Below are positions 31 to 18,790 of a stretch of 21,918 bases of DNA, piece by piece. Origin of the DNA: a virus. The translations under genes and the position numbers were made by a program. Below the pieces are notes generated by a model, which was not told where the DNA came from, ran no database searches, and worked only from the letters and a program-made list of their open reading frames with translations. The stretch is from positions 1 through 21,918 of IMG/VR virus record IMGVR_UViG_3300009601_000013, one strand, 5' to 3'. Positions within the stretch are counted from its first letter, which is position 1. Every line of letters starts with the position of its first letter.

Positions 31-2976
31 TTTGTAAATAAAAAAACTAATCAAAGTTTACTTAAAAAAATTAATGATATTTTAAGTGGTAAATATGAGG
101 ATATAAGTTCTGGAAAGAAAAAAGCTTATAAAGTAGACGATGACACAAGATTAAGACTTGTAGATATAAAAAACAGAATAGGTAAATTATCACTAAAAAA
201 TGCAACAAAGCTAAAGAAAGAAGGATCAGATATTGAACAAGAAATTACTGATTTAGAATCAGTTACTTTTCAAACACCAGAAAACAGATCAGATATTGCA
301 GATTTAAATGTAGTGTTAGATTATTTAAATTCTGAATTAGGAACTGATATTGACGGAACTAAAACAATTGCATTACAAGGAGTTGTAAGTAATCTTAATG
401 AATTAATTGCAACAGGTAAAACTGTTTTGCAAGCAGAAACATATGCAAAACATTTACAATATGTTGCAGATTTTGAAGCACTTTATTATGATGTAACAGG
501 GAAACGTATTAAAACATACATAGAAAACCCTAACTTTGATGAATTTGAATTAGAATCTAATAAAAATTCACGTTTAATTAAAAATCCTGAAGCAGTTAAA
601 GCTCTTAAACTGGCAACTATAATTTCTCAAGCTAAAATAGATGCTAAAAAGAAAAACGCACTTAGAATATTTAGAAATCTTGCGAGAGGAACGAGAGAAT
701 ATATCTATAGAAATAGTGATTTAGGCACATGGATGGGTATAATTGGAAAAATGCCTGGTGAATTAGTAGGTAATGAAACGCAAATCAGAACACAATACAA
801 AGTAGATGCAGGAACAAGAGAATATAAAGCTCGAAAAATGGCAACTACATTAGCTATAAATGCTAAATTAGAAAATGTTTATGGAAAAAATTGGAAAAAA
901 CTTTCGCAAAAAGATTCAAGTTTACAGCCTATAGGTATTTTCTATGGTGATTCTTTAGATAATTTAGAATTAAATGAAATGAGTCAAAATCAAATGGCTT
1001 ATTTAGTTGCTCAATATAAAGATCCTGCTAACGAATCTTCATTTGCAAAAAAATATGGATCTGATTATATACGTATAATGAGTGAAATGGAATCTAAACT
1101 TAATAAAAATGTTAAGGAAATGTCCAGGTGGCAGGTAGAAGAGTTTTTCCCTTCTTTGTATCAAGATTATAATGATGCATACAAAAAAATATACAGAACA
1201 TCAATGCCATGGAATCAATATTATGCTGGCAGAATATATAGAGAAGGTAGAAATACAGAGCAAGACATAATGCAATTAGTAGTTGATGGTAAAGGTGGTA
1301 TGGATGCATTTGCTTCAGGAGCAGCTCCTGCTTCTACTAAAGTTAGAATATTAAATTCTAATCCAATTGCTGATATGGATCAAATGGGAATGCTAACTTC
1401 TTATGTTAATGACATGAATTATTTTGCAGCTATGGGTGAAACCATAAATGACATGAATAAATTGTTTAGAAATAATGATTTACGATCTCAAATAGAAGCA
1501 AATTTTGGTACATCTGCTTATAAGAGTGTTATGAACATGATAACTAAAATAGGAAACAGAGGAGTAAGTGGTGAGTATAATATGGAGTTTATAAATAACA
1601 TTACTACAAGTTTTGTAATAGGTAAATTGGCAATTAACCCAACAATATATATAAAACAATTAACATCAGCACCTGCATTTGCTGCTTTTATTGGTGTAAG
1701 AAATTGGACAAAAATTGCTGCCATGAACATAACTAAGTTTAGAAGCGAATGGACAGAAATACAAAAAAATTCTGTTTATATTCAGGATAGATATGGGGAA
1801 TCTATATTAAGAACTTTAGAAACTTATTCTAAAAAAAATGTAGAAAGTGTTCTTCCTTCAGGTTTAACAGGTAATGTAATTGATATTTTTATGTATTTAG
1901 TTAAACAAGGAGATAAAGGAGCTATTTTGGCTGGTGGAGTTCCTAATTACATTTTTTATAAAAATCAATATAGAAAAGCTAATCCACAAGCTACTGAGCA
2001 AGAAGTTATTGATTTTGCAATTATAGGTTTTGAAAGAGATACTAAACAAACTCAACAATCAAGTGACTTGCAAGATAAAGATGAATTTCAAACAGGAAGT
2101 CCTTTTGTTAGAGGATTAAATATGTTTCAAACTTCTATAAAACAATATTTCAGACAAGAATTAATGGCTGCAGTAAATTTATATAGAAAAGCAACTACAG
2201 GAAATAAACAAGGAAAAGGCACAGTTTGGGAAAATACAAGAAGATTAATGATATTTCATTCTTTATTACCTTTGGCCTTTCAATTTGCATCTTCTGGTTT
2301 ACCAGGGATATTAGCTCCTTGGGATGATGAAGATTCTGAAGATTTATTAAGAGCTGGAGTTTTAGGAAACTTAAACGCTATATTTCTTATGGGGCAACTA
2401 TTTACTTTTGCAGGAGATTATTTTACAGGTAAGCCATGGACAGGTCAAAGTTCAGGCTCAATTCCTATTTTAGAACTATCAGCTAAGTTTTTTGCTGATA
2501 TGACAAGAGCAGATAAGTATAATACAAGTCCATTTGATAAAAATGGTAAAGCACGTAAACCTGAAGCTGTACAGAAAAGTATAGATGGAAAAGCAAATAG
2601 TCAAAAGAAAGCATTGTATAATCTTGTTAATTCTTTAGGTGTTCCTACAAGACAAGTGGAGAGATTAATAAATAATTCTAAGAAAATATTAAACGATGAT
2701 CTTACTACTGCAGAAATATTATTGTATGTATTACAGTTTTCTGAATATGTTGTTGAAAGCTCTGAGGATAGACAAAATAAAAACAAAAAGAAAAAGAAAG
2801 CAACTAAAATGAGTATAAAGGATATGAAGCGTTATAATCCAGAAGCTTATATGCGATATTTACAACAACAACAAGCAATTAAAAATTCTCCTCGATATAG
2901 AGAACAACAACGACTTAAAGATTTGCAAGAAATGAGGAGACGACAAGCTTTAGACGAATATTATAGTAGACAATAA
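31..2976 (+). CDS. Large polyvalent phage protein, C-terminal portion (LPD38-like), 5' end unresolved
   Basis: The frame is open from base 31 to the TAA at 2974-2976 (about 981 codons), but the first conventional start in it is a GTG at 313 and the first ATG lies beyond 700. The stretch before 313 reads like protein, so this is probably the C-terminal part of a larger product. Residues about 410-460, counted from the GTG, include the segment IGKLAINPTIYIKQLTSAPA, which resembles the hydrophobic core of the large polyvalent protein-associated domains (LPD38 type) of very large phage proteins packaged in the virion and ejected with DNA. The last 75 residues are lysine-, glutamine- and arginine-rich and probably helical. 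Stops fall in all three frames between 28 and 41, so either an unusual start, a broken gene, or a splice or assembly boundary lies there. The assignment to the polyvalent class comes from general similarity, not a database match. The gene is coupled to the next by a TAATG overlap. Confidence 0.6.
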   Translation, partial: FVNKKTNQSLLKKINDILSGKYEDISSGKKKAYKVDDDTRLRLVDIKNRIGKLSLKNATKLKKEGSDIEQEITDLESVTFQTPENRSDIADLNVVLDYLNSELGTDIDGTKTIALQGVVSNLNELIATGKTVLQAETYAKHLQYVADFEALYYDVTGKRIKTYIENPNFDEFELESNKNSRLIKNPEAVKALKLATIISQAKIDAKKKNALRIFRNLARGTREYIYRNSDLGTWMGIIGKMPGELVGNETQIRTQYKVDAGTREYKARKMATTLAINAKLENVYGKNWKKLSQKDSSLQPIGIFYGDSLDNLELNEMSQNQMAYLVAQYKDPANESSFAKKYGSDYIRIMSEMESKLNKNVKEMSRWQVEEFFPSLYQDYNDAYKKIYRTSMPWNQYYAGRIYREGRNTEQDIMQLVVDGKGGMDAFASGAAPASTKVRILNSNPIADMDQMGMLTSYVNDMNYFAAMGETINDMNKLFRNNDLRSQIEANFGTSAYKSVMNMITKIGNRGVSGEYNMEFINNITTSFVIGKLAINPTIYIKQLTSAPAFAAFIGVRNWTKIAAMNITKFRSEWTEIQKNSVYIQDRYGESILRTLETYSKKNVESVLPSGLTGNVIDIFMYLVKQGDKGAILAGGVPNYIFYKNQYRKANPQATEQEVIDFAIIGFERDTKQTQQSSDLQDKDEFQTGSPFVRGLNMFQTSIKQYFRQELMAAVNLYRKATTGNKQGKGTVWENTRRLMIFHSLLPLAFQFASSGLPGILAPWDDEDSEDLLRAGVLGNLNAIFLMGQLFTFAGDYFTGKPWTGQSSGSIPILELSAKFFADMTRADKYNTSPFDKNGKARKPEAVQKSIDGKANSQKKALYNLVNSLGVPTRQVERLINNSKKILNDDLTTAEILLYVLQFSEYVVESSEDRQNKNKKKKKATKMSIKDMKRYNPEAYMRYLQQQQAIKNSPRYREQQRLKDLQEMRRRQALDEYYSRQ

Positions 2977-4485: not shown

Positions 4486-4914
4486 TTATTTTAGATTCTT
4501 TAGTTCTTTCATTTCTTGTTTGAGTTGGGTTACTGTTAAAGATAACAAACTATTTGACTTTTCCAAATCCATTATTGTTTTTTTTATTAACATTAAATCA
4601 ACGACTTCTAAACTATCATCGAACATGATTTCGTTTTTTTTGAACAAGTTTAAACAAGTGTCATATTTTAAACCTATAGCTGGTTTAAATTTAATCATAT
4701 AAGGATATTCTTTTATGCCATGCATAATGGTTGCGTGTTTTTTTAAAAAATGTTTACCAATCTCGGTATAACCCATATGAAATTCTTTGCGCATTATAGT
4801 ATAACATGTAGCTCTTGCTTCTATAGTTTCTGTTTCTCTGTTTTTATTATCTACATTAACACCAAACACATTGTTGGCTATATTTTTTAATCTGTTAACT
4901 TTATTTACACTCAT
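4486..4914 (-). CDS. Stand-alone DnaA domain IV-like DNA-binding protein with C-terminal coiled coil
   Basis: Residues 32-70 match the C-terminal DNA-binding domain of the replication initiator DnaA: an EARATCYTIMRKE helix, then YTEIGKHFLKKHATIMHGIK. The last part corresponds to the DnaA signature where a conserved DHTTVMHA-type helix enters the DnaA box. There is no Walker A or AAA+ region; the protein is only 142 residues and continues into a Leu/Lys/Glu-rich coiled coil (about 103-142) that could dimerise. It therefore cannot be a complete initiator. It may bind phage origin or operator sequences, or compete with host DnaA for its boxes (inference). It lies in the replication operon downstream of the VRR-NUC gene and overlaps the previous gene by 14 bp. 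A second such protein lies at 11542-11838. Confidence 0.8.
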   Translation of the reverse strand: MSVNKVNRLKNIANNVFGVNVDNKNRETETIEARATCYTIMRKEFHMGYTEIGKHFLKKHATIMHGIKEYPYMIKFKPAIGLKYDTCLNLFKKNEIMFDDSLEVVDLMLIKKTIMDLEKSNSLLSLTVTQLKQEMKELKNLK

Positions 4915-6676: not shown

Positions 6677-9084
6677 AGTTTTAACATTCCGTTTGACTCT
6701 TTGCTATGTAGGTTAACAAATCTAATCCACTTCCCAACTGTATCTCTTCCCTCTTGTGGCTCACAACTATACTTATACACTGCGTAAGAGTTTAACCATT
6801 TGTAAAACCTTGTTCTACTTATAGTCATTTTACCACGTGTAGACCTATCAGGGTTTTCTTCAACAAAATCATTATACAAATCATTTTTATATATCTTACA
6901 ATCAAATTTTAATTTATCTTGTGGAATTGAAGTTCCAATAATACCACACCATTCAATAAAATCATAACCTGTTTTCGCAGATAGTTTTCTTATTTTTAAA
7001 TTAACAAATTCACTTTTTAATAAACCTTCCTCAAGATACTTTTGCAGGTTGTGTATCATGTAGTTATCAAACTGACACCATTCAGCATCATTCCACTCTC
7101 CAAACATTAATCTTCCAAATTCTACTAAAGGTGTAAATTCTTTTGTGTAATGTTGTGCTAATTCTAATTCCCACTTTCTTCTTTCAAAACTTGTACCTTC
7201 TCCACTTATAGCGTAGTTAGTAGTTATAGCAATCTTAGGAGATTTAGAAAATGGAATTCGTATAGCATCACGATTCTTTTTTTCCAGCATTAAACCCTCT
7301 GTAATTACACTAAACAATCTTTCAAAGTCAAAGTATTTTTTTACATCATCAAAACATAATATTTGAGTATCAGCAGAAACAGTTTGATAAGCAAAACTCT
7401 TTTCAAAATTAAAAGACTTACCATCAATAAATACTAACTTTTTCATATGACTTAATGCATTCATAAATAAACCTTTACCTGTTCCACCTTCAGGATTGTC
7501 AGTTATAACTTCATCATTTAAAATTACTGCTGGACAATAAGCTAAGTTTTTCCATCCATGAAGCATGTATCCAATTGTGGATTCCATAGACTTTATTCTT
7601 GATGAGTCTTTGCCACATATGTTTTCTATAAAAGTTTTGTAATTACATTCGCCTACTTCACATAAGTCAAAATCTCTATCTATAACATGATCTTTCCAAA
7701 CGTATCCTCCTAAATCTATGTAATCAATCGTGCTTATGTTGTTGTACTTGATGGAAACTGCACAATTTCTATAATATAAATATGCAGTATCTTTTGTATC
7801 CTCAATAAAAAACACATTAATTGATGAAAGTAGAGTTAAAAACTCTTCTCTAAAATATCGTGTGCATTCTGCAAAATAATTATAAATGGTATAATCATCA
7901 ATTTCTAATAAATAACTTAAAATATAATCTTTAATTTCTTTTTCAGAAGTGTGATCAATTAAGTTATTGGTTACTCTTACAAAAACATAATTTTTACTTC
8001 CCTCTGGATTAAACTTGTAAAACCCATTGTCTTCAAGAAAGTTCTTAAATAAAATATGAACTATTTTAATTGTTCCTTTTTCATTCTTACTCCAAAAGAT
8101 ATTGTTGTTATGTTCTTCTTCTAATTTGTTTATGACACTTTCAATTACATTGACCTCAATATTATCATCAGCTAATTGAGATCTAATTTCTTTTTTTGTG
8201 ACTCCACTCAATAGTTTATGTTTTATAAGATTTACTTTTTCTTCATCCTCATAAAATTTTGTTCCAAAGTTTTGTTTTTGTGAGTAAGCAGATTTAATAG
8301 TCCTCATAACTTCTGAATTAGGAAAACTTTTTGAAGCAAATGAAGTCATAATATACTTAGCTAAATTTTCATTTACACCAAAATCATTAAATGCTGCTGC
8401 TAAAATGTATGCGTTGTTGTTACGTTCTCCAGCTATCATTCCATATTTTTTCTCCCACCATTTTAATAATATTTCTACTATTTTATTTTCATCCGTTACA
8501 GGTATAGTAACTACACCTTGTGTTTTAGAAACCTCTGTGTACTCTTGTTCAATAATTTTATCCCATAAACTTGCTTGTTCATTGGTATAAATTAAAGGAT
8601 CATAAGATTCATAACATACTCTTGATATATTTTTTGATGTAGTATCAAAGTATTCTGAATCAAAATGCTTTTCTAAAGAATAGAAATAATTTTTGTGGTT
8701 TATTATATCAGTTGGTATTTTAATTAAAACTTTTAAACCTTTACCACTTGGACTTATAAATACTGAATAAACATAATTGTCTTTAGATATTTTTTCTTTT
8801 TCTTGTAGTAAAGCTTTTGTTGTTTTGTACCCATCAAAATCTAAACAAATAAGACCTGAATGTTCTATTAAAGATGTATCGTTTCTTTTTGTAAATTTGC
8901 CACTGAAACAAATTGCTGGTAATGACTGTTTTAAAACATTTCTTTTTGTCTTGTCTGATTCTTTCCTTATGGATTTTACTAACTCTTTTGTTGCACCTTC
9001 TTGAATTCTCGCTAAGACTACTTCAACCTCTCTATAAAAGGGTTGAGAAGTGTTTTTAATGTCTTTAAATATTGTTATTTCCAT
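6673..9084 (-). CDS. Primase-helicase: BT4734-like primase domain plus SF3 (D5-like) helicase
   Basis: This 803-residue protein is the central replication enzyme of the window. The N-terminal domain has LDFDG at 81-85 and SPSGKGLKVLIK at 111-122, the pattern of BT4734/BF3469-type (VirE N-terminal-like) domains related to archaeo-eukaryotic primases. Residues about 215-275 (GERNNNAYILAAAFNDFG) look like the helical PriCT-type linker. The C-terminal part is an SF3 helicase: Walker A NPEGGTGKG near 528-536, Walker B ILCFDDV near 573-579, sensor/motif C IAITTNYA near 617-624, and an arginine-finger segment SFERRKWELEL just after. It should unwind DNA and prime synthesis at the phage replication fork. 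It is the first gene after the iteron region at 9087-9263 and its ATG directly abuts the repeats. Bacteroidota-type primase architecture is one reason for the host assignment. Confidence 0.88.
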   Translation of the reverse strand: MEITIFKDIKNTSQPFYREVEVVLARIQEGATKELVKSIRKESDKTKRNVLKQSLPAICFSGKFTKRNDTSLIEHSGLICLDFDGYKTTKALLQEKEKISKDNYVYSVFISPSGKGLKVLIKIPTDIINHKNYFYSLEKHFDSEYFDTTSKNISRVCYESYDPLIYTNEQASLWDKIIEQEYTEVSKTQGVVTIPVTDENKIVEILLKWWEKKYGMIAGERNNNAYILAAAFNDFGVNENLAKYIMTSFASKSFPNSEVMRTIKSAYSQKQNFGTKFYEDEEKVNLIKHKLLSGVTKKEIRSQLADDNIEVNVIESVINKLEEEHNNNIFWSKNEKGTIKIVHILFKNFLEDNGFYKFNPEGSKNYVFVRVTNNLIDHTSEKEIKDYILSYLLEIDDYTIYNYFAECTRYFREEFLTLLSSINVFFIEDTKDTAYLYYRNCAVSIKYNNISTIDYIDLGGYVWKDHVIDRDFDLCEVGECNYKTFIENICGKDSSRIKSMESTIGYMLHGWKNLAYCPAVILNDEVITDNPEGGTGKGLFMNALSHMKKLVFIDGKSFNFEKSFAYQTVSADTQILCFDDVKKYFDFERLFSVITEGLMLEKKNRDAIRIPFSKSPKIAITTNYAISGEGTSFERRKWELELAQHYTKEFTPLVEFGRLMFGEWNDAEWCQFDNYMIHNLQKYLEEGLLKSEFVNLKIRKLSAKTGYDFIEWCGIIGTSIPQDKLKFDCKIYKNDLYNDFVEENPDRSTRGKMTISRTRFYKWLNSYAVYKYSCEPQEGRDTVGKWIRFVNLHSKESNGMLKL

Positions 9085-9086
9085 TT

Positions 9087-9120
9087 TATGTTGATTTTAT
9101 GTTGATTTTATGTTGATTTA
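9087..9120 (-). repeat. Three tandem iterons TATGTTGATTTT abutting the primase start
   Basis: Three copies of TATGTTGATTTT/A start at 9087, 9098 and 9109, an exact 11-bp period, about one helical turn. In the direction of the primase-helicase gene they read AAAATCAACATA and end 2 bp before its ATG. A fourth, degenerate copy in the same orientation is at 9172-9183 (TATGTTGAAAAT) and an inverted copy at 9252-9263. The same motif with the same period recurs at 16257-16279 upstream of groEL. Phased direct repeats next to a replication gene fit initiator iterons or an operator that autoregulates the replication genes. Confidence 0.75.
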
Positions 9121-9262
9121 ATTTTTAGTAAGTTATTAGTTATTAGTTATTTAACTATATTACTTACTTTTTATGTTGAAAATTAGTTAATATAATTAAT
9201 AAATAAAAATAAAAGAGATAGTAATATTTATATAATATAGTATAAGGCTAAAAAATCAACAT
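9121..9262. other. AT-rich noncoding region upstream of primase-helicase
   Basis: This stretch has no credible gene. It is almost entirely A and T, with runs such as TTAGTTATTAGTTATTTAAC (direct TTATTAGT repeats at 9132-9150) and TATA-rich segments, plus the degenerate and inverted iteron copies at 9172-9183 and 9252-9263. Low duplex stability beside iterons is what a replication origin's unwinding element would look like, but a promoter region is equally possible. I see no clean TAnnTTTG promoter on the minus strand here. Confidence 0.5.
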
Positions 9263-9287
9263 AAAAAAAGAGGCCATTAGCCTCTTT
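9263..9287 (-). terminator. Rho-independent terminator after the recombination genes
   Basis: Read on the minus strand, AAAGAGGC (9287-9280) pairs perfectly with GCCTCTTT (9274-9267) around a 5-nt loop, giving an 8-bp stem that continues into a run of T residues (9269-9263). It lies 53 bp beyond the stop of the SSB-like gene and should end, or partly end, the upstream leftward transcript before the primase-helicase operon. The stem is symmetric, so weak plus-strand activity (TTTCTTAC tail) is possible. Confidence 0.85.
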
Positions 9288-11146: not shown

Positions 11147-11545
11147 TTAATTTAATTGATTTAATTTTAATTTATGTTTAGCATATTTATTCATTACATT
11201 ATCTCTACGAGTTTTTAAATTCTGAATATGCTTGTCGTTTTTACGAGTGTTCATCTCTTCCTTCATTCTTATTTCTATAAGATTTAATTTAAAATTACAG
11301 TTATTTAAAGCTATAAGTAAAACTCCTTTTTTCCAACCATTGTTAAAAAAATAGGAGTACTCCATATTATTCATTTCTCTGTAATAATCTCCACCCTTTG
11401 AGCAATTTAATATTTCAGTTTTGCTGGGAAACCTTTGAATTTTTACACCAAGTTTTATTATAAACTCTCCTTTTTCGACTTTACTCTTAGCTGAAGATCT
11501 ATCACTTGATGCTTGTTCAAATATTTCATCTATAGTAAAAATCAT
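11147..11545 (-). CDS. Hypothetical protein with basic C-terminus
   Basis: This 132-residue protein is not recognised. The first half is mixed; the second half (about 90-132) is rich in Lys, Arg and Asn and predicted to form a long basic helix, which would suit nucleic-acid contact. Its ATG overlaps the end of the DnaA domain IV-like gene by 4 bp (ATGA-type) and the ERF start follows 5 bp after its stop, so it belongs to the same polycistron. No catalytic motif is seen. Confidence 0.65.
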   Translation of the reverse strand: MIFTIDEIFEQASSDRSSAKSKVEKGEFIIKLGVKIQRFPSKTEILNCSKGGDYYREMNNMEYSYFFNNGWKKGVLLIALNNCNFKLNLIEIRMKEEMNTRKNDKHIQNLKTRRDNVMNKYAKHKLKLNQLN

Positions 11546-11838
11546 ATTTCTTCATTAATTTTATCGATCATTTGTTCAAAATCTTTATCTGAATCAATTA
11601 ATGCTTTTGCTTGTTTATATCCATGTATAATAGTAGAATGAGCGATTTTACATCCATTATCTTCCATAAACTTCTGGACATAAGACACTCTAATTGGTCT
11701 TTCTAAACACAAATAGTATAACAATTGTCTTGCATCAACTAAATCTCTTCTTCTTGATTTATCAAACATCTCATCTAAATTTAAATGAAATTGTTTTGCT
11801 ATTGCGTGTGCGTACTTATCAAATATTTCTCTCTTCAT
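11542..11838 (-). CDS. Stand-alone DnaA domain IV-like DNA-binding protein
   Basis: This 98-residue protein consists almost only of a DnaA C-terminal-like domain. KSRRRDLVDARQLLYYLC (28-45) matches the first helices after the linker, including the conserved basic turn and the ARQLLYYL helix. IAHSTIIHGYKQAKALI (65-81) matches the signature helix that reads the DnaA box (DHTTVMHA in cellular DnaA). The AAA+ ATPase and domain I are absent. It may recognise a phage-specific box, recruit the primase-helicase, or regulate host or phage initiation; none of this is shown. It differs from the 142-residue protein at 4486-4914, which carries a coiled coil. It overlaps both neighbours by 4 bp. Confidence 0.85.
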   Translation of the reverse strand: MKREIFDKYAHAIAKQFHLNLDEMFDKSRRRDLVDARQLLYYLCLERPIRVSYVQKFMEDNGCKIAHSTIIHGYKQAKALIDSDKDFEQMIDKINEEI

Positions 11839-12071
11839 AATTTGTTTATATTAATTTCATTTAATCTTTCTAATTCAAATCGCAAATGTGCAATTGCTTT
11901 ATGTATATCTTCAATTGGTGTGTTGTGTTTGCGTGAAGCACGTAAACAATATGTAACTGCTGTACCTATATTATATGTACAATCAAAATCGCTTACTACA
12001 TATCTTGCTTGATAATTTCTTTTTTTGTTTGTTCCTATATAATAAGTAGGAATGTTTTTTTCTTTTGGCAT
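11835..12071 (-). CDS. DUF3310-like small protein
   Basis: Residues 26-70 of this 78-residue protein (YNIGTAVTYCLRASRK, then EDIHKAIAHLRFELERL) match the pattern of the DUF3310 family of small phage proteins: a polar-aromatic start, N-x-G-x-A-x-x-Y-x-L-R-A, a variable turn, then E-D-x-x-K-A-x-x-H-L. These are widespread in phage early regions, sometimes annotated as nucleotide kinase-like without biochemical proof. The gene is the first after the terminator at 12190-12215 and is preceded by a 118-bp leader, so a promoter or antitermination signal may lie just upstream. It overlaps the DnaA-like gene by 4 bp. Confidence 0.65.
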   Translation of the reverse strand: MPKEKNIPTYYIGTNKKRNYQARYVVSDFDCTYNIGTAVTYCLRASRKHNTPIEDIHKAIAHLRFELERLNEININKL

Positions 12072-12449: not shown

Positions 12450-12500
12450 ATATGTGTGATTTTAAGTGTTTGATCAATAAACGACCTCCACAAATGACTT

Positions 12501-12541
12501 CTAAGAGACTTTCTCTTAGTAAGTGATACCTAAGTATCTCC
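12501..12541 (-). repeat. Intergenic hairpin element, copy 1
   Basis: A 22-bp segment (12520-12541) matches 13187-13208 at 21 of 22 positions. Read on the minus strand it contains GATAC-TTAG-GTATC, a 5-bp stem with 4-nt loop. It is followed directly by a second perfect stem, CTAAGAGA (12519-12512) with TCTCTTAG (12508-12501). In the other copy the first stem changes A to G opposite T, keeping pairing as a wobble, which suggests an RNA structure. It stands upstream of a small-protein start; role unknown, possibly a processing, stability or translation-control element. Confidence 0.65.
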
Positions 12542-13117: not shown

Positions 13118-13164
13118 TTTTCTATGTTTTTAATGTTTTGCAAGAATTTGGACTCTATAGATTC

Positions 13165-13250
13165 GTTCTAAGAGCTTTTCTCACACTAAGTGATACCTAA
13201 GTACCTCCGTTTACCACGAAAACCTCGCATATTTCTATGCAAGGCGTTTG
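13165..13250 (-). repeat. Composite intergenic hairpin element, copy 2
   Basis: Two modules lie here. Module 1 (13187-13208) matches 12520-12541 at 21 of 22 bases and forms GGTAC-TTAG-GTATC on the minus strand. Module 2 (about 13209-13262) resembles 14069-14125. It has a hairpin of nine pairs with one mismatch between CCTCGCATA (13223-13231) and TATGCAAGG (13236-13244), followed on the minus strand by TTTTCGTGGTAAA. In the other copy the stem sequence is CCTCCC/GGGAGG but the flanks (TTCAGAACT, AACGCCT, AGGTTTT, GTGGTAAA) are kept, so the structure is conserved while the stem sequence varies. Module 2 directly follows a gene stop and may act as a weak terminator or processing hairpin. Confidence 0.6.
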
Positions 13251-15937: not shown

Positions 15938-16159
15938 ATGGACTTAAACAAAGACAAAAAAATTTCTGATAATGTAGAAGGCCTCTACGTACAGAACGGT
16001 AGATTAATTAACGGAAGACCAAATGGTATGTCAGGAATTGAAGAAGCTTCAATGTACAGACAGCAAATGAAAAAACAATATAAGATCGATTGTATCGCTG
16101 ATGGTATTGAAAGAGCTAAGATGAGAATGAGTGGTGACAGGGATATCTTTGAGTATTAA
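15938..16159 (+). CDS. Small hypothetical protein, first rightward gene
   Basis: This 73-residue protein is not recognised. It is charged and probably flexible at the N-terminus (MDLNKDKKISDNVEG), with a short beta-like NGRLINGRPNG turn and a helical C-terminal half containing basic and Met residues (ERAKMRMSGDRDIFEY). It has its own promoter-like box 14 bp upstream and a strong terminator 30 bp downstream, so it forms a monocistronic unit. That separate, probably strong, control suggests that it is needed in quantity or at a different time from its neighbours. Confidence 0.7.
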   Translation: MDLNKDKKISDNVEGLYVQNGRLINGRPNGMSGIEEASMYRQQMKKQYKIDCIADGIERAKMRMSGDRDIFEY

Positions 16160-16189
16160 AAATTCCACATTTTGTTTTGATTTGAAAAG

Positions 16190-16220
16190 TAGGATTCTAT
16201 ATAGAGTCCTATTTTTTTTT
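16190..16220 (+). terminator. Rho-independent terminator after the 73-residue gene
   Basis: TAGGATTC (16190-16197) pairs with GAGTCCTA (16204-16211), with one T-G wobble, around the loop TATATA. It is followed by nine T residues (16212-16220). This is a strong intrinsic terminator on the plus strand, separating the small gene from the groEL operon. Confidence 0.9.
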
Positions 16221-16256
16221 GCTTATGTTTTATAATTACCTGAATAATGTTAATAA

Positions 16257-16342
16257 TATGTTGATTTTATGTTGATTTTTTTTTACTTAACTATTTGATT
16301 ACTATTCTTTTATATACTATTTATTACTTTAATGTTGATTTA
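16257..16342 (+). repeat. Iterons TATGTTGATTTT upstream of groEL
   Basis: Two exact TATGTTGATTTT copies at 16257-16268 and 16268-16279 have the same 11-bp period as the three copies before the primase gene, and a variant AATGTTGATTTA stands at 16331-16342. The rest of 16221-16450 is A/T-only in character, with TAGTATAGTAG-type runs at 16369-16400, and contains no gene. The repeats may be an operator coordinating groEL with replication, or part of an origin. Confidence 0.7.
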
Positions 16343-16450
16343 GTAGTATAATTATAATAATAGAATAATAGTATAGTAGTAAAAAGTATAGTAGTAGTAA
16401 AGTGGAAAGAAAAAACTAACATACTAACATGCATTGTAATATTAATTTAT

Positions 16451-16458
16451 TATATTTG
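16451..16458 (+). promoter_or_regulatory. groEL promoter -7 box
   Basis: TATATTTG exactly matches the TAnnTTTG consensus and lies 25 bp before the groEL ATG. The extended context TTATTATATTTGTT is identical to that before the gene at 19694. The nearest upstream TTG (16434-16436) is only 14 bp away, shorter than the usual spacing, so the -33 element is unclear or replaced by an activator, perhaps acting through the iterons. Confidence 0.68.
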
Positions 16459-16483
16459 TTTAAACAATTAAATTTAATTTACT

Positions 16484-18103
16484 ATGAGTGCAGCAGGATA
16501 CATTCCTAAAGATGTTTGTTTCGATAATGAAGGCAGACAAAAATTAATAGAAGGTATAACAATTATATCTAAAGCAGTTAAAAGTACACTTGGCCCAGCA
16601 GGGCAAACTGTTTTAATTGAATCACCTCAACATACTAATAATATAACAGTAACTAAAGATGGAGTTACAGTAGCTCGTTCTATAGAGCTTCATGATCCTG
16701 TAGCTAACTTGGCTATACAGATGATGAAAGATGCAGCAAACAGAACTGCTAATGCGGCAGGTGATGGAACTACTACAGCTATTGTATTGACAGAAGCTTT
16801 AATAAATGCAGGTCAGGAGTTAATGACAGACGAGCATAATACTACTGAAGTGTTAAGAGCTATAAACAAACACAAGGAAAAAGTTTTAAACCATTTAAAG
16901 GTTAACTCAAAAAAAGTAAGTAAGAAAAAACTATTAGACGTTGCTACTATCTCAGCTAACAACGACAAGGAGTTAGGTAAGATTATAGCAGAGGCTTATA
17001 ACAAAGTAGGGAAAGATGGAGTTGTTACAGTTGAGAAATCTATGACTGCAGATACTTATTCTGAAGTTACGAATGGTATAAAAATAAACAGAGGGTATAC
17101 TTCTAACTTGTTTATTAATGATCAAAAGAAAGACGAGTGTATTTTAGATGACGTAAAAGTTTTAGTGTGCGATACTGAGATAAGTAATATTTTACAAATT
17201 GAAAATATTTTAAAACCAATTATTAATAATAGTCAGAAACTTTTAATTATAGGAACTTGTACTACCAATGTAATAAATACTTTGGCTGCTAACGTAGTTC
17301 GTAATGGATTAAAGTTTTGTAATATACAGCCACCACAGTTTGGTTACAAGCAACATGAGTTAATGCAGGACATCGCCTTGGCAGTTGGAGCAAAGTATTA
17401 TTCTGAAAAGACTGGAGACGATTTGAGTTTAATGAGTTCTCAAGATTTAGGATCTGTAGATAAAATTATAGTAGGACAAAACTCTACTGTTATTTTAAAA
17501 GACAATATTAGAACTGAGGAAATTAATAATCGTATTAAAGAATTAAAATTTCAACAAGATACCACAACAGATGTTTCGCAAAAAACATTTATAAACGAAA
17601 GGATAGCAAGTTTGTCTGGAGGAATAGGATGTATTTATGTTGGAGGTAACTCAGATGTAGAACAAAAAGAAAAATTTGACAGAGTCGATGACTCTGTATG
17701 CGCTGTGCGCAGTGCAATGCAAGAAGGAATTATTGCAGGAGGAGGACAAGCTCTATGGGATGCATCGGATTCTTTACTTGATTGTAATTGTGGAAACAAA
17801 GATGCAAATGAAATTGTAGCAAAAACAATTTTAATACAAGCTTTAAAATCTCCATTAATACAAATAATAAAAAATGCAGGATTAGATTATGAAAAAATCA
17901 CTGACTTAAATAATATTCCTAAAGACATTTTTATGACACAAAAGAATGTAGGGTACGATGTTAAGAATGAAAAATATGGCGATATGTTTAAGATGGGAGT
18001 TATAGATCCATTAAAAGTTACCAAGCATGCATTAAACAATGCTATTAGTGTAGCAACAACTATTCTAAGTACTAACGCAATAATAACTCATAAAAGAATA
18101 TAA
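16484..18103 (+). CDS. groL: Phage-encoded group I chaperonin GroEL (Hsp60)
   Basis: This 539-residue protein is a full-length GroEL homologue. It has STLGPAGQTV (34-43) in the nucleotide pocket, TKDGVTVA (57-64) and AAGDGTTTAIVL (91-102) with the ATPase aspartates D59 and D94, an apical-domain region with PPQFGYKQHELMQDIA in place of the cellular APGFGDRRKAMLEDIA, and RVDDSVCAVRSAMQEGIIAGGG near 401-421 with the conserved aspartate of the intermediate domain. It ends in AIITHKRI and lacks the Gly-Gly-Met tail of bacterial GroEL. It should fold phage proteins in a double-ring chamber with a GroES cap. groES follows with a TAATG overlap, the reverse of the usual host gene order. It has its own promoter and iterons and is codon-wise AT-rich like its neighbours, so it is not a recent host fragment. 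Confidence 0.95.
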   Translation: MSAAGYIPKDVCFDNEGRQKLIEGITIISKAVKSTLGPAGQTVLIESPQHTNNITVTKDGVTVARSIELHDPVANLAIQMMKDAANRTANAAGDGTTTAIVLTEALINAGQELMTDEHNTTEVLRAINKHKEKVLNHLKVNSKKVSKKKLLDVATISANNDKELGKIIAEAYNKVGKDGVVTVEKSMTADTYSEVTNGIKINRGYTSNLFINDQKKDECILDDVKVLVCDTEISNILQIENILKPIINNSQKLLIIGTCTTNVINTLAANVVRNGLKFCNIQPPQFGYKQHELMQDIALAVGAKYYSEKTGDDLSLMSSQDLGSVDKIIVGQNSTVILKDNIRTEEINNRIKELKFQQDTTTDVSQKTFINERIASLSGGIGCIYVGGNSDVEQKEKFDRVDDSVCAVRSAMQEGIIAGGGQALWDASDSLLDCNCGNKDANEIVAKTILIQALKSPLIQIIKNAGLDYEKITDLNNIPKDIFMTQKNVGYDVKNEKYGDMFKMGVIDPLKVTKHALNNAISVATTILSTNAIITHKRI

Positions 18104-18360
18104 TGAAAGCAATAGGTAAGTTTATAGTAATAAAAGCAATAGAGGAAGAACTAAAAACAGATTCAGGTTTATTGTTATCTGCAGAAGATGCTAATAGTTT
18201 TAGATATAGAAAAGGAATTGTTATAACTCCTGGATCAGGAGTTACTGTAATTGAAAAGGATAATGTAATATACTATGATCGTAACGCAGGGCATGATATG
18301 CTATTGAAAAACGAATCAGTTACTATTATTCAAGAAAGAGATGTCGTTGTAGTTTTATAA
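18103..18360 (+). CDS. groS: Phage-encoded co-chaperonin GroES (Cpn10)
   Basis: This 85-residue protein has the Cpn10 pattern: a KAIGKFIVIKAIEEE first strand (like PLGDRVVVKR), a mobile-loop region with DSGLLLSAED (about 21-30) where GLLL stands for the hydrophobic IVL tripeptide that binds GroEL, a VITPGSG turn, DNVIYYDRNAGHDM matching GDKVLFGKYAGTEV, and a final IIQERDVVVVL matching LRESDILAVL. It is shorter than the usual 95 residues, chiefly around the roof loop. The one-base overlap with groEL ensures matched expression. It should cap the phage GroEL, possibly also host GroEL. The last 35 bp are antisense to the end of the minus-strand gene at 18326-18790. Confidence 0.9.
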   Translation: MKAIGKFIVIKAIEEELKTDSGLLLSAEDANSFRYRKGIVITPGSGVTVIEKDNVIYYDRNAGHDMLLKNESVTIIQERDVVVVL

Positions 18361-18790
18361 ATTCGTTCATCTCTATAATTTTTAGACGATAAACTTTGTC
18401 CATGTAGTTGACGTTTTTTTTAAACAAAGGATTGATAGTAGGAGACTCTGCTATTTCTTCTCCATTTAATTTTCTGTATATAGTGTTAATAGCTATTTTA
18501 CCTTTAAACGATAATTCATATAACGTAGCTTCTTTACCTTTTCTTTTTCTCCAAACAGAAATCCATTCATTTTTTAATAAAGAATTAAATCTGTTTACAT
18601 CCCAAGACATTATTTGCTCAAAATCTTTAAACTTTGTTTTGTTAAAATAATCTTCGCTATATAAAAAAAACATCATATCTAAATCTGGAGTAGTCAAACC
18701 ATATTTTGCTTTCGCCCAATACCTAATTACTCTCCAATATTTTAAATAATTGTGAGTAGGAATTTTCCTATCATAATTTTTTCTTCTCAA
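18326..18790 (-). CDS. Winged-helix-like DNA-binding protein, candidate regulator
   Basis: This 154-residue basic protein is the only minus-strand gene within the rightward block. The middle looks like a winged-helix domain: a helix YGLTTPDLDMMFFLYSED, then FEQIMSWDVNRFNSLLKNEW as a recognition-type helix pair, a basic hairpin WRKRKGKEATLYELSF as the wing, and a following KGKIAINTIYRKL helix, as in MarR-type proteins. I therefore propose a phage transcription regulator, with moderate confidence. Its start is 43 bp from the divergent gene at 18833 with overlapping promoter-like boxes, a usual place for an autoregulator that also controls the late genes. Its 3' end overlaps groES by 35 bp in antisense. 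Confidence 0.6.
   Translation of the reverse strand: MRRKNYDRKIPTHNYLKYWRVIRYWAKAKYGLTTPDLDMMFFLYSEDYFNKTKFKDFEQIMSWDVNRFNSLLKNEWISVWRKRKGKEATLYELSFKGKIAINTIYRKLNGEEIAESPTINPLFKKNVNYMDKVYRLKIIEMNEFIKLQRHLFLE

Follow-up and report, generated by a model that had tools for sequence, protein, structure and literature searches.

A divergent phage GroEL-GroES pair with altered lid-contact and presumed inter-ring positions

The window analyzed here is a 21,918-base virus record with ~30% G+C, considered over its whole length, and a tRNA search of all 21,918 bases found none. Two overlapping plus-strand genes, groEL (16484..18103) and groES (18103..18360), sit close to where a region mostly on the plus strand begins. 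The block to the left of the pair is on the minus strand and, by Pfam and PHROG matches, contains genes of replication and recombination among others, with genes for a metallophosphoesterase, a DnaA-C-terminal-like protein, a VRR nuclease, an SNF2-type helicase, a primase-like protein, an exonuclease-like protein and an ERF recombinase. Directly upstream of groEL is a plus-strand gene of 73 codons with no assigned function (15938..16159), which is kept in the close relatives L002, L070, L003, L024 and L056 (45-83% in tblastn) and gave no tblastn match at E 1e-3 in L082 and L083. It is followed by an AT-rich intergenic region (16160..16483, plus strand) that is likely a promoter/operator region and that carries two exact copies of an 11-nt repeat, TATGTTGATTT, at 16257-16278; the window holds 6 exact copies of this repeat against 0.09 expected, and none of 100 shuffles reached 6. 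At the other end of the pair, a minus-strand gene (18326..18790) shares 35 nt with the 3' end of groES and is a conserved neighbor of the cassette. It matches a phage transcriptional regulator family weakly (phrog_17028, 1.6e-5; phrog_12817, 0.0011), was found by tblastn beside groES in all seven relatives that hold the region (L002, L003, L024, L056, L070, L082 and L083), among which the Flavobacterium phages vB_FspP_elemo (Elemovirus) show 28% identity, and its counterpart in MW202828.1 is annotated 'repressor protein'. The latter record (Caudoviricetes sp., 'Podoviridae sp.', Manatee Spring; circular, 60,850 bp) is the closest named genome and a phage of the same kind, sharing with the window both the groEL-groES order and the antisense neighbor; its identity to the window is 54.5% for groEL, 49.4% for groES and 66.5% for the primase, which marks a clearly different phage, and its annotation says merely groeL and chaperonin 10 kd subunit.

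The groEL gene encodes a protein of 539 residues. Pfam Cpn60_TCP1 (PF00118) spans residues 28-537 over profile positions 1-489 of 490 with an E value of 2.2e-61, above the curated cut-off, and phrog_5725 is matched at E 7.8e-133. The protein passes the broader NCBI GroEL subfamily models NF009487 (492.2 against a cut-off of 352) and NF000592 (467.9 against 397), fails the others, and fails the NCBI GroEL equivalog TIGR02348 (454.7 bits against 582.1). It is a group I chaperonin and not a strict GroEL equivalog. The clade to which it was compared is represented by an alignment of 84 GroELs, 73 of them distinct (79 from IMG/VR, three from genome-bin contigs, MW202828 and the window), leaving out L079, whose contig ends inside groEL, L088, with groEL in two frames, and the partial L093; clade counts thereby concern the best 80 of 480 IMG/VR relatives. 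The cellular comparison comprised 30 Bacteroidota loci, among the best-scoring of 118 genomes rather than a random sample of them; these genomes represent the phylum of the Flavobacteriaceae bin containing L088, from which the label 'Bacteroidota' is inferred.

Loss of key ATPase residues, which the earlier note named among the findings that would refute it, was not seen: D52, D87, D398, D495, K51 and the GDGTTT motif (G86-T91) of the ATP and catalytic site are invariant in all 84 clade GroELs, including that of the window. The same note was right that the Gly-Gly-Met tail is missing, and it is missing from all 84 sequences, whereas most of the 30 Bacteroidota proteins have a glycine/methionine-rich tail. 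Since E. coli is reported to tolerate its loss, the tail not being essential (PMC10723157), this absence carries little information. Between the window and three relatives, dN/dS (NG86) was 0.08-0.12 for groEL and 0.08-0.21 for groES, at dS values of 1-2 that are near saturation; in four closer relative-relative pairs it was 0.04-0.17 and 0.02-0.08, respectively. Both genes are intact and under purifying selection, and both proteins are full-length and above their Pfam cut-offs, in agreement with the original description of a complete pair at 16484-18360.

The co-chaperonin has 85 residues and a deleted roof hairpin. Pfam Cpn10 (PF00166) matches it over nearly the whole profile (35.1 bits against 21.1, E 1.4e-8), a phage GroES family of PHROG is matched at E 2.2e-11, and none of the NCBI GroES models is passed (best 31.6 against a cut-off of 120), so that GroES, like GroEL, is a clear yet divergent member of its family. 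Its AlphaFold model (pLDDT 92.6) has the Cpn10 beta-barrel fold, with Thermus Cpn10 (4v4o_P) aligned over 83 residues at Z 11.4 and rmsd 2.0, and T4 gp31 shares the fold at Z 8.7. The mobile loop, K-T-D-S-G-L-L-L-S, retains the hydrophobic triplet within SGLLLS. Among 49 non-redundant phage GroES sequences this triplet is L/I-L/I-L in 48 and has M at its third position in one, while G22, R34 and Y35 are kept in all 49, the latter two lying just past the mobile loop. The roof hairpin that the phage GroES has lost is present in E. coli and in most aligned Bacteroidota GroES. This hairpin is a usual rather than a defining GroES feature. One aligned Bacteroidota GroES (L196) is likewise partly shortened there.

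Sequence identity sets the window GroEL well apart from cellular chaperonins. It is 83% and 82% identical to its relatives L002 and L070, compared with 39% for the best of the 30 Bacteroidota GroELs, 36.5% for E. coli and ~37% for each of the GroELs of elemo, Maribacter phage Panino and Cellulophaga phage Calle. By sequence, its best PDB relative is a reconstructed ancestral Fibrobacteres-Chlorobi-Bacteroidetes chaperonin. A GroEL phylogeny with phage and Bacteroidota homologues, of the kind the earlier note had proposed, separates a group of 41 phage rows, the window among them, by a long-stemmed branch with SH-aLRT 99, and cells and several other phages fall outside this group; the tree has 64 rows and was made by a quick method, and its long branches leave the placement of elemo and Panino unsure. 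These data bear on the idea that the pair is a recently captured host groEL-groES operon whose order was scrambled and which has no selected phage role. In its favor, nearly all members of the presumed host phylum have a group I chaperonin, with a Cpn60 match in 117 of the 118 sampled genomes. However, identity to the 30 Bacteroidota GroELs does not exceed 39%, the window lies in one phage clade with strong support and a long stem, the gene order is opposite in 30 of 30 cells and dN/dS is far below 1. We therefore reject host capture as extremely improbable; the close host match in the same gene order that had been suggested as a refutation was not found among the 30 Bacteroidota loci.

The order in question, groEL followed by groES on the same strand, is present at 78 of the 80 loci nearest to the window in IMG/VR (best 80 of 480). 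At the remaining two, the contig stops inside groEL (L079) or groES was not found in the ~1.5 kb available downstream of groEL (L078). Five related genome-bin contigs (L086-L089 and L093) show the same order, as does elemo, whereas groES precedes groEL at all 30 Bacteroidota loci and in E. coli. The groEL-first order is thus a lineage trait and not a peculiarity of the window phage. The reversal recognized earlier is real with respect to cells, yet it is clade-wide, and uniqueness of the pair or of its order has to be rejected, as MW202828 and elemo are already annotated in this way. Outside the clade, Panino has groEL first with a GroES-like ORF downstream, and in Immuto and Calle groES comes first, in Calle with one gene between the two. 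Elemo and Panino group near the window clade in the tree with support of 89-91, joining through long branches, and it is plausible on this topology that the groEL-first order arose once for elemo, Panino and the window clade. The TAATG stop/start overlap of the two genes (18101..18105, plus strand), proposed to couple their translation, is present in the window and, as a 1-base overlap, in elemo, but it is not a conserved trait. Among 85 pairs a 1-base overlap occurs in 7 and any overlap in 22, the spacing being 0-20 nt in 17, 21-150 nt in 19 and >150 nt in 27, with small ORFs between the genes in many of the spaced pairs; tight translational coupling as a clade-wide property was accordingly rejected.

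For the lid-contact and substrate face, part of the list of substrate-site positions is presumed by us; L234, L237, V264, N265 and Y203 are backed by published work. In E. coli, the IVL triplet of GroES is reported to contact GroEL L234, L237 and V264, mutation of N265 to Ala to abolish GroES binding (PMC3514286), and Y203 to contact substrate (PMC10723157). Two of these positions are maintained in the clade, N265 being invariant in 84 of 84 GroELs and position 237 being Leu in 83 of 84 as in 30 of 30 Bacteroidota. The others are replaced across the clade: position 234 is Glu in all 84 sequences (Leu in 30/30 Bacteroidota), position 264 Ala in all 84 (Val in 30/30), position 263 Ala in 83 and Ser in one (Val in 30/30), and position 203 Leu or Met in all 84 (Tyr in 30/30), and E238 has become Lys in all 84. 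On the side of the lid, L/I-L/I-L replaces IVL and the roof hairpin is gone. The differences from cellular proteins in the substrate-binding and roof-loop segments pointed out previously therefore hold (positions 234, 263, 264 and 203; hairpin deleted). Since L234 has changed to Glu, V264 to Ala and Y203 to Leu or Met throughout the clade, the GroES-contact face appears to have been re-specified as a set, and because of this we would expect the phage pair to work mutually rather than exchange with that of the host. Altered contacts alone are no proof of orthogonality, as an exchange of two contact residues in mitochondrial Hsp60 is reported to have left co-chaperonin specificity unchanged (PMC3514286).

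The same positions weigh on two other readings. The pair might be a general booster of host folding that serves many late or host proteins and is neither dedicated nor orthogonal. Such a role would fit its standard ATP machinery, the occurrence of GroELs in many phages with differing neighbors and the reported ability of bacterial GroEL to function with a co-chaperonin from any source (PMC3514286). Against it, the substrate and GroES face is altered uniformly in 84 of 84 sequences (at position 263, 83 Ala and one Ser), and the uniformity of L234, V263, V264 and Y203 in 30 of 30 cells argues for specific change rather than drift; we consider a general booster unlikely, if still a serious contender. 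The second reading is a hybrid machine in which phage GroEL subunits or rings use the host GroES, or the phage GroES caps the host GroEL, the partner gene being accessory. T4 gp31 offers a precedent for it (PMC9598537), and the phage GroES does retain the basic mobile loop and fold; yet groEL and groES are kept together at 78 of 80 loci, and the GroES-contact positions 234 and 264 are changed in 84 of 84 phage GroELs, and we regard a hybrid as distinctly improbable.

A further departure from cellular GroEL concerns the interface between rings, which we take to involve nine positions (105, 108, 109, 434, 452, 461, 463, 464 and 467); support for this list was sought in papers and not found. The mean variability percentile of these positions is 91 in the clade (49 non-redundant rows) as compared with 54 in the 30 cells. 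Against random equatorial positions, the clade percentile gave p 5e-5 and the clade-minus-cell difference p 0.008. Equatorial positions matched for cellular conservation averaged the 51st percentile, and matched controls limited to residues that are polar or small in E. coli the 55th, the observed value being reached in 0 of 50,000 draws in either case; position 109 had few controls in these draws, 15 overall and 3 in the polar subset. R452, which is Arg in 30 of 30 Bacteroidota, is Arg in 6 of 84 clade GroELs. Such high variability at the presumed ring contacts suggests rings that are single or loosely paired, and it speaks, at the level of sequence, against two stacked seven-membered rings. 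In the simplest reading, the ring-ring interface has been freed from its usual constraint, as it would be in single rings; alternatively, it may have been re-specified rather than relaxed.

Taken with moderate confidence, we propose that the phage carries a self-contained group I folding machine, made of its own GroEL and GroES with a re-specified contact, probably a single ring, and acting on phage clients. The two proteins, their families, the intact ATP site, the selection on both genes, the conserved order and the altered positions are direct observations; the pairing, single ring, lid geometry, client and timing of the machine are predicted. ATP would cycle GroEL between an open state, in which the apical face holds non-native protein, and a closed state with a cap formed by the phage GroES, which is encoded next to groEL. 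In the closed state, E234, A263, A264 and L/M203 of GroEL would face the L/I-L/I-L mobile loop of the roofless GroES, and the two phage proteins are expected to partner each other and not to swap freely with the host pair. When at work, it would probably consist of one heptameric ring, or of rings that come apart easily, with GroES as the cap. Clients would most likely be phage proteins, virion proteins foremost, and the earlier note had likewise proposed a machine dedicated to a virion protein. In MW202828, the pair shares its strand with the virion genes and precedes them, the strand running on into the terminase, a P22-like portal and structural proteins. The elemo pair, in contrast, lies on the strand opposite terminase and tail genes, and the Calle GroEL is placed among replication genes. 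A virion protein is perhaps the client, with the MW202828 position and precedent speaking for it and the elemo strand and the Calle neighborhood against, and the opposite strand of the elemo pair reduces our confidence in the proposed self-contained machine as a whole.

Several known systems are close to the pair. With bacterial and mitochondrial GroEL-GroES it shares the fold, the ATP site and the two-protein organization, and it differs from them in gene order, roof hairpin, GGM tail, L234/V263/V264/Y203 and inter-ring contacts. T4 gp31 and RB49 CocO have a role with the capsid protein. They are also phage-encoded GroES-type lids, which cap the host GroEL (PMC9598537), unlike the pair described here, in which GroEL is phage-encoded as well and the lid is shorter (85 residues). 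The chaperonins OBP gp246 and AR9 gp228 are described as single rings, and EL gp146 as separating into single rings with ATP, all three co-chaperonin-free (PMC7185714, PMC9598537), whereas the window has a GroES next door. Jumbo-phage GroELs are 24-28% identical to the window GroEL among the matches listed (best 60 of 239), which do not include EL, OBP and AR9. Among Bacteroidota phages, the elemo GroEL retains L234 and R452, and the Panino GroEL has E234.

Phage GroELs are uncommon, as the earlier note held: tblastn matched 239 of 50,697 phage records. Its statement that even fewer phages also carry GroES did not stand, since the literature describes many phages with GroES alone, some with both and few with GroEL alone, as far as the account in PMC7185714 goes. 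The GroES tblastn against isolate phages returned one record only, though elemo, Panino and Calle have GroES, and this count is uninformative on rarity because the search is too insensitive for a short divergent protein. Marine et al. 2017 reportedly dealt with virioplankton chaperonins. GroEL has been reported in 36 of 78 uncultured Flavobacteriaceae phage genomes of the phi38:1 group (PMC5332604), both GroEL and GroES in Panino (PMC11590407), and viral chaperonins in soil in a study that cites a marine survey (PMC8390657); the phi38:1 GroEL, gp054, appears among the methylated proteins that an infection study tabulated by mass spectrometry (PMC13288928). In a literature search of titles and abstract openings, outside most subscription journals, we found no account of the interface changes, roof loss, relaxed ring contacts or tandem GroES (see below) in these phages. 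Whereas the phage GroEL-GroES pair and its order were already known, the altered anatomy of lid contact, roof and ring contact looks new. It defines a large natural GroEL-GroES family with an unchanged ATP engine but a changed roof and changed contacts between lid and chamber and between rings. This family could be used to learn which contacts determine the specificity of a chaperonin for its lid, and whether single rings with a lid are enough.

Most long relatives of the window phage encode another protein related to GroES. When eight phage records that carry this GroEL were searched with a Cpn10 profile, 6 gave a second match, which fell short of the family cut-off (E 2e-5 to 0.011) and lay inside an ORF of ~191 codons. 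The 187-residue product, a tandem GroES-like protein, matches phrog_13932 (four proteins tested), a family already named co-chaperonin GroES in PHROG. Its model (pLDDT 89) aligns over the whole length with 7ekq chain R, a subunit of the Cpn20 co-chaperonin by its listing (Foldseek E 3.5e-5, TM 0.56; Z 10.3, rmsd 4.7, 159 aligned), a resemblance to chloroplast Cpn20. By eye, the N-terminal half has a segment like a mobile loop, which contains conserved residues and is modelled with low confidence (pLDDT 62 near residues 31-40), and the C-terminal half is without a comparable segment. An 85-residue GroES profile misses the tandem protein in elemo, and the window was therefore rescanned with a tandem-protein profile, which gave no match up to the window's end 3.6 kb past groES. 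Because the gene lies 7.8-9.6 kb downstream of groES in nine relatives (L012, L015, L017-L019, L055, L057, L060 and L082), the window phage may still have it past that end.

In the relatives, this tandem protein could be the actual lid, which would count against the pairing proposed above. Tandem (Cpn20) lids are best known from plastids, and our search of titles and abstract openings for Cpn20-like or tandem co-chaperonins in phages found no paper on them. As a tentative and somewhat doubtful extension, we consider a three-part chaperonin composed of a single-ring GroEL, the short roofless GroES and the 187-residue protein with the tandem GroES fold, which would form mixed or alternative lids for one virion client; such a machine, if real, would give phages an equivalent of the Cpn10/Cpn20 lid of chloroplasts. 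Of 27 records with the phage GroEL, 23 have the tandem protein and the four that lack it are records of 42-56 kb, and conversely the phage GroEL is present in 7 of 11 long records picked for the tandem protein, the four misses being of 37-45 kb. It occurs in 77 isolate records, all of them Flavobacterium, Cellulophaga and Maribacter phages except MW202828; elemo and Panino both carry it, as do phi38:1 and Calle (Callevirus, Pervagoviridae; Cellulophaga phages), which combine it with GroEL, in Calle together with Cpn10. In elemo the tandem gene adjoins the terminase gene, and in MW202828 it precedes terminase, from which a single small gene separates it.

The 11-nt sequence TATGTTGATTT occurs in the window in six exact copies (9087-9119 (+), 9253-9263 (-) and 16257-16278 (+)), against 0.09 expected, and these copies are located directly upstream of the minus-strand primase gene, which starts at 9084, and upstream of groEL. 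Close relatives, among them the loci L002, L003, L007 and L070, also have the 9-nt core of the repeat upstream of groEL, but of the 78 loci inspected most lack it at that position. The repeats might possibly constitute a shared operator or iteron.

On its downstream side, the groEL-groES pair (16484-18103 and 18103-18360, both (+)) is followed by a conserved antisense gene (18326-18790 (-)), which overlaps the 3' end of groES and whose product is weakly similar to a phage transcriptional regulator. This gene adjoins the pair in all seven relatives covering the region. In eight further loci (L065-L069 and L071-L073), groEL and groES are separated by a 74-aa ORF (70 aa in L073, where it lies at the edge of the gap between the two genes). 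Since this ORF, judged by eye, resembles the product of window 11835-12071 (-), the corresponding gene may have moved. Other relatives carry different small ORFs at this position.

Apart from the groES product, relatives encode a second, tandem GroES-fold protein (family phrog_13932; 187 aa, or 180 aa in Flavobacterium phage elemo), which is present in 23 of the 27 GroEL-bearing records. Its predicted fold comes nearest to that of the chloroplast co-chaperonin Cpn20. Its gene, located near the terminase in elemo and in MW202828, the closest named phage genome, was identified at L101:4822-5382 (-), L102:6381-6941 (+), L108:31785-32345 (-) and L083:2300-2839 (-), all outside the window; it was not found in the window, which stops short of its site in relatives.

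GroEL of the window's phage clade is also encoded by L086 and L087. These contigs come from bins assigned to Aliivibrio and Chthoniobacterales, but they are probably viral and were misplaced in binning. At L088:2630-4331, a groEL of the same clade spans two reading frames, reflecting a frameshift or an assembly error; relatives have intact copies.

Elsewhere in the window, the 887-aa protein encoded at 313-2976 (+) matched no Pfam or PHROG family at E 0.01, nor did tblastn at E 1e-3 give a hit in any of nine relative loci, for none of which coverage of the equivalent region was demonstrated. Two small DnaA-related proteins are encoded at 4486-4914 (-), matching the DnaA C-terminal domain, and at 11542-11838 (-), aligning with a MW202828 gene annotated dnaA. 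Finally, a pair of 56-nt repeats (12486-12541 and 13153-13208; 79% identity, 667 nt apart) falls between ORFs taken as genes.
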